Under the pieces are notes generated by a model. That model worked only from the letters and a program-made list of their open reading frames with translations. It was not told where the DNA came from and did no database searches. Positions 24,195 to 27,934 of a stretch of DNA of 33,233 bases are shown piece by piece. Source of the stretch: an uncultured Verrucomicrobia subdivision 3 bacterium. GTDB lineage: Bacteria; Verrucomicrobiota; Verrucomicrobiia; Limisphaerales; UBA11358. Location of the stretch: contig CAJAQO010000208.1 of assembly GCA_903944085.1 (NCBI GenBank), positions 1-33,233 on the forward strand, written 5' to 3'. Position numbers and translations under genes: made by a program. The stretch's first letter is position 1. The number at the start of each line of letters is the position of its first letter.

Positions 24195-24217
24195 GTGAGT
24201 GCGTGTGTGTTGTTGTC

Positions 24218-24383
24218 TGTGTAAAACCGGTCCATGCCCGATGCGTCAGTGCCTTCGGTGAACCTTGTGGTTAAATTTTTTAGCAGGGCGGATGCCAGTT
24301 CGCAAGCACTTTGCTCGCGGCGGCTAAAAAAACAGTTTTCCCCGCATCGGGCAAAGGTTTTGGCCCGCACCGTTTTTTACACA
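24218..24383. repeat. Long imperfect palindrome upstream of glnII
   Basis: The outer arms are TGTGTAAAA (24218-24226) against TTTTACACA (ending 24383). Next is a perfect 11-bp pair, TGCCCGATGCG (24235-24245) with CGCATCGGGCA (24343-24353). An inner pair is TTTTTTAGC (24276-24284) with GCTAAAAAA (24323-24331). Together they form a nested, roughly 166-base imperfect palindrome containing the putative -24/-12 element. It could be a MITE remnant or a regulatory hairpin. Confidence 0.6.
24282..24297 (-). promoter_or_regulatory. Putative sigma-54 (-24/-12) promoter of glnII
   Basis: On the minus strand, TGGCATCCGCCCTGCT matches TGGCAC-N5-TTGCW with GG and GC at the required spacing and three mismatches elsewhere. 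Initiation would be near 24270, giving a leader of about 76 bases before the glnII ATG at 24194. Confidence 0.6.
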
Positions 24384-24523
24384 AAAATCACCGCCGGAAA
24401 ATCCGCTGTGGAAATTTAGCCGCGCTGGACAAATCGCCGCGCGGTGACGCCGCGAAGCAGCCTTGCATCGCGCCAAAAATCGGCAATAGTGAATCTAACG
24501 AACGCCGCGTCCGCAACGGTCCC

Positions 24524-24919
24524 ATGCTGAAAGTAAAAGACACGCTCCGCGCCACCGTCCATTTGGGTTTTGATGGCCGGGTGTTCAAGGCGTATCACGG
24601 CCCCGATGCGGCCAAACGCTTTGCCAACGAGGTGCGAATCCTTCGCCACCTCGCCGCGCACGGCTGCGACTTTGTTCCGCGGCTGCTGGAAGCGGATGAA
24701 AAAAATCTCCGCATTGTCACCAGCAATTGCGGCACCCGCGTCGAGCGCATTGATGACGCGCGGGCGCAGCGCCTCTTCGCCGAGCTGGAAAATTTCGGCG
24801 TGCGCCACGACGATGCCGATCCGCGCAACATCACCTACCGCTTTTCCGACGGACGCTTTTGTTTGATTGATTTTGAATTCGCCACCATTCTTCCCGAATC
24901 CAAAACGGAACCAAAATGA
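24524..24919 (+). CDS. Miniature protein-kinase-fold protein
   Basis: This 131-aa protein, read from ATG 24524, preserves the order of kinase motifs in an unusually short chain. Lys22 lies in VFKAYHG (ATP lysine), and Glu36 in FANEVRIL (helix C). H95-x-D97-x4-N102 (HDDADPRN, catalytic loop) is followed by D116-F117-E118 in LIDFEFA (metal-binding DFG equivalent). The glycine-rich loop is poor (GFDGR) and there is almost no C-lobe after DFE, so it resembles the minimal end of the RIO/Kdo-kinase-like superfamily. Its stop overlaps the PP2C start (ATGA), indicating coupling. It may be a real small kinase, a regulator of one, or a degenerate pseudokinase; the substrate is unknown. Confidence 0.7.
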   Translation: MLKVKDTLRATVHLGFDGRVFKAYHGPDAAKRFANEVRILRHLAAHGCDFVPRLLEADEKNLRIVTSNCGTRVERIDDARAQRLFAELENFGVRHDDADPRNITYRFSDGRFCLIDFEFATILPESKTEPK

Positions 24920-25746
24920 AACGCCAGCCGCCCTGCCCCGCCAAAAAAATCCCCGCGCTGAAATGGTCCGGCAGCTCGGATATCGGGCGGGTGCGCAAGA
25001 ACAACGAGGATTCCTTTCTCGGCCTCCAGTTCGACGCGCGGGAGATTTTCCGGCTCGGCAAATTCGGCGAGGCCGGCATGGAGCAACACGATTTCACCTT
25101 TGCCGTGTGCGACGGCATGGGCGGTGCCAAGGCCGGCGAATACGCCAGCCAGATCGCCGTGGATAAAATCACCACCCTGCTTCCCCGCGCCTTCCAGCAA
25201 TCCGCCACCGGCATGAACGCCGGTTTTGCCGACGTGCTGGCGGAACTTTTCGCCCAGGTTCACCGCGCCCTGGCCTACCTCGGCAGTTGCTACGAGGAAT
25301 GTCACGGGATGCAGACCACCATGAGCCTGTGCTGGTTCACGCCCGGCTGGATGTATTTCGGCCACATCGGCGACAGCCGGATTTATCATTTGCCGAAGAA
25401 AAAAAACACCGTCAAGCAGCTCACCGAGGACGACACCCACGTCGGCTGGCTGTTTCGCCAGGGAAAAATCAATGAATACGAGCTGCGCACCCATCCGCGC
25501 CGCAACGTCCTGCAACGCGCCCTCGGCGGCGAAAACCAGTTCGTGGAACCGCAGGTCGGCGCGGTGGCCTGCGAGCGCGGCGACCTGTTTCTGCTCTGCT
25601 CCGACGGTCTGGTTGACGGCCTGTTTGACGGCCAACTCGTGGAACTGCTGCGCGCCAAGGACCACTCGGCGCAAAAACTGGTGGCCGCCTCGCTCGTCAA
25701 TTCCGGTCGCGACAATACCACCGCGCTGGTGGTGCAGGTGATGTAA
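24916..25746 (+). CDS. PP2C-family Ser/Thr protein phosphatase
   Basis: This 276-aa cytoplasmic phosphatase has all main PP2C metal-site motifs: SDIGRVRKNNED (21-32), VCDGMGG (64-70), GDSR (152-155), CSDGL (228-232) and GRDN (264-267). It dephosphorylates Ser/Thr (or related) phosphoproteins using two Mn2+/Mg2+ ions. The start overlaps the stop of the kinase-like gene by four bases, so the two are probably translated together as opposing partners. No membrane segment or regulatory domain is visible. A simple GTG/ATG alternative start is not needed. The pair lies within the nitrogen-assimilation block, but a link to glnII or glnK is only inferred from position. Confidence 0.93.
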   Translation: MKRQPPCPAKKIPALKWSGSSDIGRVRKNNEDSFLGLQFDAREIFRLGKFGEAGMEQHDFTFAVCDGMGGAKAGEYASQIAVDKITTLLPRAFQQSATGMNAGFADVLAELFAQVHRALAYLGSCYEECHGMQTTMSLCWFTPGWMYFGHIGDSRIYHLPKKKNTVKQLTEDDTHVGWLFRQGKINEYELRTHPRRNVLQRALGGENQFVEPQVGAVACERGDLFLLCSDGLVDGLFDGQLVELLRAKDHSAQKLVAASLVNSGRDNTTALVVQVM

Positions 25747-25835: not shown

Positions 25836-25868
25836 AAAAAAACGGCGGGCAACTTGCGTTGCCCGCCG
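25836..25868 (-). terminator. Rho-independent terminator of glnK-amt
   Basis: An 11-bp perfect stem CGGCGGGCAAC / GTTGCCCGCCG (25843-25853 with 25858-25868) with a TTGC loop is followed on the minus strand by seven T. Confidence 0.92.
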
Positions 25869-25912
25869 TGCGGATTTGTCTGTCAGGCTTTCTATCTGAA
25901 TATCGCCAGCGC

Positions 25913-27532
25913 TCAGTCGTGGTAGCCGAGTTCGCCGTGTTCGGATTCGTCGAGGCCGACCATTTCGACTTCTTCCGTCGGGCGCAGACCGACCAGCAAC
26001 TTGGTGATGAAGGCGATCACAATCGTTCCGATCACGCTCAAGATGATGGTGATGACCACGGCCTTGAGCTGTTCCTTGACGAGCGGTTGGAAGCAGGAAT
26101 CGGTGACGTATTTGCTCAAGTTGGTGGCGAAGTTCGGATTCGCCGCATTGCGCGCTAGCATACCGGTCATGATGGCCCCCGTCGTGCCGCCGATGGCGTG
26201 GACGCCGAACGTATCCAACGCGTCGTCATAACCCAACCAGGCTTTGACCTTGTAGCACATGAACCAGCAGATGGTGCCGGCCGCAATGCCGATCCAGATC
26301 GAGCCTTGAGGTGTGATGTAACCGCAAGCGGGCGTGATCACCACCAAGCCGGCCACCGCGCCGGAACAGAAACCGAGCACGCTCGGCTTGCCTTTGACGA
26401 TCCACTCCCACATTGGCCAGACGAAGGACGCAATGGCCGTGGCAATCGTCGTGGTGGTGAAGGCGTTGGCGGCGATGATGTCGCCGGCGACCGCTGAACC
26501 GGAGTTGAAACCATACCAGCCGACCCAGAGCATGCCGGTGCCGATGTAGGTGAGCACCAGGCTGTGCGGCGCGAAGTTTTCTTTGCCGAAGCCTTTGCGT
26601 TTGCCGAGGATCAAGCACAGGATCAACGCTGACCAACCGGATGTCATGTGCACCACCGTGCCGCCGGCGAAGTCAATCGCCTTGATTGGTGCGTTGGCGT
26701 TCCACACGCCGTTCATGTAACCGTTGATGCCCCAAACTGCGTGGCCCTGGGTGAAATAAACCAGCAGCATCCACAGCGTCATGAACACGAAGATGGCCTT
26801 GAATTTCATGCGTTCCGCAATGGCACCGATGATGAGCGCCGGGGTGATGATGGCGAACATCAATTGGAACATGGCATAGACGTTTTCCGAAACCCAGTAG
26901 GAATAATTGCCGTTGGGCGCCGAGGTGACATTCTTCAGCATCCAGCAGATCATCGGGCTGCCGACCCAGCCGGAGATGATGTCTTCCTTGCCGGGCGCGC
27001 CCGTGCCGCCGAAGATCATGCCGTAGCCGACGAACACCCAGAGGATGGTCACGAGGCCGGTGATCAGGAAGCATTGCGCGAGCACTGACAGCACGTTCTT
27101 GCGGCGCACCATGCCGCCGTAGAACAGCGCCAGACCGGGCAGCGTCATGAACAACACGAACGCCGTGCTGGTGAGCAGCCAGGCATTGTGGCCCGCGCCG
27201 GGATAGGAAACAAACCCGCCGGTGCTGTTGGACAGGTTGGTGTTGATGATGGAGGCGCCCAGCCCAAAGTTCACCGTGTAGTTGCCGTTCGTGTCCTTGT
27301 AAGGCGCGGTCGGATCCGTATTCGCAAAATAAGCTTCGACGGATTCGAGGCGTTGTTCCAAGGAAGGCGCATTGGTCAGCGGCGGTGCGGCCGGCACGGC
27401 GGCCGCGACCGCATTGGTCGCCATCGCCACGGCATTCGTTGTCGTCAGGGCGTTGGTGTCATCCGCGCGCAGGGAAAGCGCTCCGAACGAGGCCGAAGCG
27501 ATCAAGGCTAAAGTAAGAAAGAATTTTTTCAT
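25913..27532 (-). CDS. amt: Ammonium transporter Amt
   Basis: This 539-aa protein conducts ammonium or ammonia across the inner membrane. A signal peptide (MKKFFLTLALIASASFGALSLRA is split as MKKFFLTLALIA and SFGALSLRADD) precedes an Ala/Thr/Asn-rich periplasmic stretch of about 90 residues. The Amt core begins near HNAWLLTSTAFVLFM and contains PGLALFYGGMVRRKNVLS. The twin histidines fit GTVVHMTSGWSALI and FGVHAIGGTTGAI. It is about 100 residues longer than AmtB because of the N-terminal extension. It is the second gene of glnK-amt (30-base gap), the usual pair in which GlnK blocks Amt under ammonium sufficiency. Confidence 0.96.
   Translation of the reverse strand: MKKFFLTLALIASASFGALSLRADDTNALTTTNAVAMATNAVAAAVPAAPPLTNAPSLEQRLESVEAYFANTDPTAPYKDTNGNYTVNFGLGASIINTNLSNSTGGFVSYPGAGHNAWLLTSTAFVLFMTLPGLALFYGGMVRRKNVLSVLAQCFLITGLVTILWVFVGYGMIFGGTGAPGKEDIISGWVGSPMICWMLKNVTSAPNGNYSYWVSENVYAMFQLMFAIITPALIIGAIAERMKFKAIFVFMTLWMLLVYFTQGHAVWGINGYMNGVWNANAPIKAIDFAGGTVVHMTSGWSALILCLILGKRKGFGKENFAPHSLVLTYIGTGMLWVGWYGFNSGSAVAGDIIAANAFTTTTIATAIASFVWPMWEWIVKGKPSVLGFCSGAVAGLVVITPACGYITPQGSIWIGIAAGTICWFMCYKVKAWLGYDDALDTFGVHAIGGTTGAIMTGMLARNAANPNFATNLSKYVTDSCFQPLVKEQLKAVVITIILSVIGTIVIAFITKLLVGLRPTEEVEMVGLDESEHGELGYHD

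Positions 27533-27562: not shown

Positions 27563-27934
<372 letters not shown>

Follow-up and report, generated by a model that had tools for sequence, protein, structure and literature searches.

A miniature kinase and its partner PP2C phosphatase track type II glutamine synthetase in Verrucomicrobiae and may form a phospho-switch

A miniature kinase gene overlapping a PP2C gene

The window (the whole stretch of DNA analysed here, 33,233 nucleotides) is a 33-kb contig that belongs, by its nearest named relatives, to Verrucomicrobia of the Pedosphaera/Limisphaerales type. It carries a gene for a very small kinase-like protein whose end overlaps the start of a PP2C-type phosphatase gene (Table 1), and an initial inspection of the letters and open reading frames (the sequence-only reading) had placed this pair among ammonium-assimilation genes. 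The neighbours are indeed glnA, amtB and glnK. GlnA of the window is a type II (eukaryotic-like) glutamine synthetase (GSII) and the sole glutamine synthetase (GS) of the genome. No Rfam family was found around the locus, including the region between glnA and the kinase gene. The same genome contains a second amtB-glnK pair (G000:C83:33000-43000, L208) that is accompanied by neither kinase nor PP2C and whose glnK is 83% identical to that of the window.

Table 1. Features at the kinase-PP2C locus (window positions).
Feature	Position	Strand	Remarks
glnA, type II glutamine synthetase (GSII), 348 aa	23148..24194	-	divergent from kinase; proposed substrate
329-base intergenic region, glnA start to kinase start	24195..24523	.	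putative shared regulatory region
mini kinase, 131 aa	24524..24919 (stop included)	+	N-lobe, helix E, catalytic loop HDDADPRN, DFE; no C-lobe past DFE; partial match to Pfam APH, 35.7 bits
ATGA stop/start overlap, kinase TGA with PP2C ATG	24916..24919	+	recurs at homologous loci
PP2C-family phosphatase, 276 aa	24916..25746	+	motifs RxxNNED, DGMGG, GDSR, SDGL, GRDNTT all present
terminator-like hairpin between PP2C and convergent amtB	25842..25869	-	pattern match only
amtB ammonium transporter, convergent	25913..27532	-	neighbour conserved within the order, not in more distant families
glnK (PII)	27563..27934	-	T-loop with Ser49 and Tyr51 (YRGSEY)

The kinase is as the sequence-only reading had described it in coordinates, frame, length and residues, and its translation contains the catalytic-type residues K22, E36, H95-x-D97-x4-N102 and D116-F117-E118; the overlap of its stop codon with the PP2C start was likewise correctly recognised. 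A 202-aa product from an upstream TTG start in the same frame was rejected because conservation does not extend beyond the ATG at 24524, whose M1 is kept in 111/111 unique homologues. Of 59 near relatives, 39 encode a homologue, as do 81 of 387 genomes across the phylum, almost all from the same class, and a species-level collection yielded 289 stretches with a kinase match, of which the best 80 were retained. Identity to orthologues is 70-84% within the order, across species and families, and 45-65% to those of other orders, and by these sequence comparisons the reading frame is conserved far beyond chance. K22, E36, H95, D97, N102, D116 and E118 are invariant in 141/141 unique sequences, in which K5, V12, R32, C48, G70, R101, T104, Y105 and G110 also never change. 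The sequence-only reading would have been undermined by full-length homologues, of which the window protein was a truncated copy; none of the homologues is full-length, and the unfused ones of class Verrucomicrobiae measure 124-171 aa (median 131), which rules out this origin. Along with the invariant Cys48, Cys69 and Cys113 are nearly invariant in this protein of 131 aa, and a metal or redox role of the three is conceivable.

The PP2C gene lies directly 3' of the kinase gene in nearly all loci, namely in 75/75 loci of the species collection with enough sequence and in 51/51 of the other set, and ATGA ends 40/76 unfused kinase reading frames in one locus set and 28/52 in the other. The conserved pairing that the sequence-only reading had proposed to look for is class-wide, and it includes natural fusions. 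Opitutaceae-like genomes encode such fused proteins, 398-417 aa long (two come from single-contig assemblies), and so do a second and a third family and one subdivision 3 group; the kinase portion has the same end point as in unfused copies, the PP2C begins about 10 residues later, and the predicted fold comprises two confident domains. The window PP2C scores 56.5 bits on Pfam PF13672 (cut-off 24) and 181.6 bits on the Stp1/PrpC-type equivalog NF033484, below the 230 required there. Its motifs RxxNED, DGMGG, GDSR/GDTR and D[ND]xT are present in 39/39 sequences, and the CSDGL type in 37/39, so that the catalytic residues of both enzymes are intact. An orthologous PP2C is encoded by 40/40 kinase-positive and 0/40 kinase-negative genomes; kinase and phosphatase are strictly co-inherited.

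Outside the order, amtB and glnK are mostly not neighbours of the pair. The glnA gene stays, in two different gene orders: divergent from the kinase in most families, and as kinase-PP2C-glnA in one. In one genome (G412) the kinase-PP2C fusion gene is present twice, both copies being accompanied by a separate glnA; the two GlnA proteins share 70% and 46% identity with the window GSII. At six loci of family f26, the kinase gene follows an mgtE-type Mg transporter gene and does not lie upstream of PP2C.

A kinase fold without a C-lobe

The AlphaFold model of the kinase (60 sequences; mean pLDDT 92.6, pTM 0.86) consists of five N-lobe strands, helix C (29-45), helix E (78-91), the catalytic loop, two short strand pairs and the DFE motif. 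The sequence-only reading had noted that there was almost no C-lobe, and the model agrees: DFE is followed by one short strand (120-122) and a low-confidence tail, and the protein ends about 13 residues past the motif. Helix F with Asp220 and the substrate-binding C-lobe, that is, the subdomains after DFG, are absent from the model; the helix F Asp is one of ten key residues of the kinase superfamily (PMC1821047). As modelled, the protein is a kinase fold of which only the half that binds ATP and the catalytic strand are left. It is nonetheless a member of the protein-kinase-like superfamily by its residues, since the catalytic Lys, helix C Glu, HxD, Asn and metal-binding Asp are all present in the 141 unique sequences.

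A Foldseek search with the model returned the archaeal RNA kinase Ark1 (171-173 aa) as best match, with Bud32 and RIO kinases near the top, and VIA-align gave Z scores of about 11-13 to PRPK/Bud32, Rio and Ark1, with which many protein kinases tie. The APH family (Pfam PF01636) is matched above its gathering score of 23.2 across profile positions 137-199 only, a partial, superfamily-level match that 58/60 kinase homologues share at E <= 0.001. On the Bud32 profile TIGR03724, the kinase reaches 23.8 bits against a curated threshold of 125. When solved structures were searched with a profile of the aligned kinases, nothing was found at 0.01; a single-sequence search gave one weak match (8k20_B, E 0.016).

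Co-occurrence with GSII and alternation with GlnE

What is new here is that the kinase and PP2C track GSII, which is encoded divergently beside the kinase; the nitrogen connection seen in the sequence-only reading holds and can be narrowed to this enzyme. GSII was found in 79/80 kinase-positive genomes (67/67 of those of good quality) versus 3/80 kinase-negative ones, and the GSIIs of these three are divergent, being only 57-61% identical. The association has a Fisher p of about 1e-40, or 1e-25 at genus level, both uncorrected for phylogeny; contrasts within genera and within families (the window's own genus; f28; f34; f26) all agree with it, and GSII is likewise missing from seven kinase-negative genomes that belong to the same genus as the window. 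The pattern is not accounted for by physical linkage, given that it holds in genomes in which the genes are scattered. At least ten genomes still possess GSII although the sequence retrieved on either side of the kinase (8-15 kb in most cases, less on one short contig) contains no glnA; in five of these, PP2C is divergent to glnA and the kinase lies elsewhere (after mgtE where the surroundings were read), and in one genome kinase, PP2C and GSII are on three different contigs. The pair therefore displays the co-occurrence with one GS type looked for in a GS-modifying system. Co-occurrence alone cannot distinguish GSII itself from another gene that travels with GSII.

Plasmid-encoded rhizobial GlnII (two loci) is 74-75% identical to the window GSII and has no adjacent pair, and no kinase homologue was found on plasmids; the proposed switch is thus no universal part of bacterial GSII. 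The window GSII is about as close to these rhizobial enzymes as to GSIIs from other orders of its own class, a similarity that suggests horizontal transfer of GSII. A search for Ser/Thr residues of GSII unique to kinase-positive genomes found none, and no clear phosphosite candidate emerged. Ser283 may serve as a weak lead: it is invariant in 116 kinase-positive GSIIs and two rhizobial enzymes have Pro at this position, but all three kinase-negative GSIIs share the Ser.

The kinase-negative state is marked by the adenylyltransferase GlnE. True GlnE is present in 27/40 kinase-negative versus 2/40 kinase-positive genomes; the latter two possess a GSI-type GS besides GSII, and kinase-negative genomes with GlnE usually carry a GSI-type enzyme, or another GS form. 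Weak GlnE matches (E 1e-4 to 1e-7) in kinase-positive genomes were left uncounted: most map near the N-terminus of reading frames as long as GlnD, and many coincide with GlnD coordinates. GlnD itself occurs in every kinase-positive genome of the class among those listed and in many kinase-negative genomes as well, as does PII in the latter, with an identical T-loop, Ser49 included, in 5/5 kinase-negative genomes checked. The simplest reading is that the output modules are of two kinds that can replace each other, one in which GlnE acts on GSI and one in which kinase/PP2C acts on GSII, and PII and GlnD may feed into both. In genus g26 of family f26 (G063, G079, G082, G140, G169 and others), among the matches listed, kinase and PII are absent; GSII is also absent from the genomes searched, and no full-length GlnD appeared.

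A candidate phospho-switch on GSII

We propose that the kinase and PP2C are writer and eraser of a reversible phosphorylation of which GSII is the substrate, a reading towards which the evidence leans. A phospho-switch is strongly implied as the predicted activity of the pair, which would probably be an undescribed on/off control of GSII, a central enzyme of nitrogen metabolism. The mini kinase would use ATP to phosphorylate a Ser/Thr of GSII or, conceivably, a site that GSII has in common with a partner, and PP2C, made at a fixed ratio via the overlapping genes or as part of a single fused protein, would remove it. The phosphorylation state would then set the activity or assembly of GSII in one direction or the other. 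Given that the peptide-binding C-lobe is missing, substrate recognition would have to come from docking of the kinase or the fusion on the GS surface. The pair would hold for GSII the place that GlnE holds for GSI in related bacteria, and since GlnD and PII occur in kinase-positive and many kinase-negative genomes, either output could receive its nitrogen signal from them.

The missing C-lobe also leaves room for a different role, in which the kinase is a pseudokinase or ATPase that senses ATP/ADP and switches PP2C or GSII by binding. The loss of everything past DFE, helix F Asp included, fits such an energy sensor, and the tight gene overlap and the fusions would suit a regulatory subunit. 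However, pseudokinases usually lose some catalytic residues, whereas here the catalytic Asp97, the metal-binding N102 and D116 and all others are invariant, and a PP2C without a kinase would require another writer. We regard the sensor as unlikely, while taking it seriously.

A switch on PII, our initial favourite, we now consider improbable. The pair would act on Ser49 in the T-loop of GlnK, like the cyanobacterial PP2C PphA, and the kinase would be the missing type of PII kinase, which in cyanobacteria is still unidentified (PMC4285133, PMC11863333). The window GlnK does have this Ser49 and lies in the same cluster as the pair, as at many loci of the order, and tPphA is among the solved relatives of the window PP2C. 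This proposal was set back by the finding that the T-loop is the same in kinase-positive and kinase-negative genomes; since such a PII occurs without the kinase, PII does not explain the distribution. In addition, it is glnA and mostly not glnK/amtB that adjoins the pair outside the order, and PstP of M. tuberculosis is slightly closer to the window PP2C than PphA is.

Phosphorylation of RNA or a small molecule, in the manner of the tRNA kinase Ark1 or of the Pfam family APH, is quite improbable, even though Ark1 is the best Foldseek match, DFE is common to ArkI (PMC9095486) and APH is matched by profile. In ArkI, HGQ replaces HRD, the surface is basic and a C-terminal YKR helix is present (PMC9095486), but the window kinase has an HDD loop, ends before the helix and belongs to a family with a near-zero net charge (mean -0.85). 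Its partner, moreover, is of a protein phosphatase family and not KptA. In SelO, a kinase fold transfers AMP, and the kinase domain might likewise AMPylate GSII while PP2C acts elsewhere. Control of GSI by AMPylation and the existence of kinase-fold AMPylases (PMC12409994) are in keeping with this, but the strict partnership with PP2C argues for a phosphate mark, and we rate AMPylation as very improbable. That the genes are inherited merely as a block, with the kinase a decaying functionless remnant, is scarcely credible: linkage is common in the class, but kinase, PP2C and GSII still occur together where their genes are scattered, no catalytic residue varies and identity is high over large distances.

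So far as our searches show, a mini kinase and a PP2C that jointly track GSII are real, conserved and undescribed: we found no report in the literature on Verrucomicrobia with PII and PP2C, and no title of apparent relevance in that on glutamine synthetase with kinase and phosphatase. In its fullest form, our proposal is that an active kinase of 125-131 residues, lacking a C-lobe past DFE, and a co-translated or fused PP2C constitute the first reversible covalent switch dedicated to a bacterial GSII, and that this equivalent of GlnE, with phosphate as its mark, originated in class Verrucomicrobiae; we hold this tentatively, at slightly less than even chances. If true, bacterial GSII would gain a dedicated covalent control, of which we found none described in the literature searched, and the lower size limit for a working protein kinase would drop below Bud32 and ArkI. 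The pair would also offer a simple kinase-phosphatase cycle of two genes, or one fused protein, for study, and would show that a lineage can exchange, at its main nitrogen gate, the enzyme together with the entire chemistry by which it is modified. Because the pair and GlnE-GSI alternate almost exclusively, cultured relatives among the Opitutaceae lend themselves to a direct test of the hypothesis.

Among known systems, GlnE, which adenylylates and deadenylylates GSI, is like the pair a dedicated modifier with two activities that tracks one GS type. The folds are unrelated, however, the mark is AMP instead of the proposed phosphate, and GlnE combines two nucleotidyltransferase domains where the pair has a separate or fused kinase and PP2C. 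PphA, which dephosphorylates PII-Ser49-P in cyanobacteria, resembles the window PP2C in its proposed role in nitrogen control, and in Synechocystis an atypical kinase gene, SpkI, adjoins pphA, although SpkI is dispensable for PII phosphorylation (PMC11863333); the pair differs in its mini kinase and in co-occurring with GSII, not PII. The closest solved fold is that of archaeal ArkI/Ark1 (COG2112; PDB 8yv4, 8yv5), which is likewise small and has DFE for DFG, whereas the window kinase is shorter (131 versus about 171-216 aa), has the catalytic Asp and lacks the C-terminal helices with the YKR motif. Bud32/PRPK and RIO kinases are similar in fold and size range (VIA-align Z about 11-12.6), but the window kinase falls far below the Bud32 profile threshold and is missing the C-lobe helices after DFE. 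AceK combines kinase and phosphatase activities for one metabolic enzyme, isocitrate dehydrogenase, in one protein. It is in this respect that we liken it to the fused kinase-PP2C homologues, although its phosphatase chemistry and architecture differ. Finally, plant GSII is controlled by phosphorylation and 14-3-3 proteins (PMC8668187), so that GSII is a known target in eukaryotes, as we propose here for a system that is, in contrast, bacterial and built from dedicated, linked enzymes.
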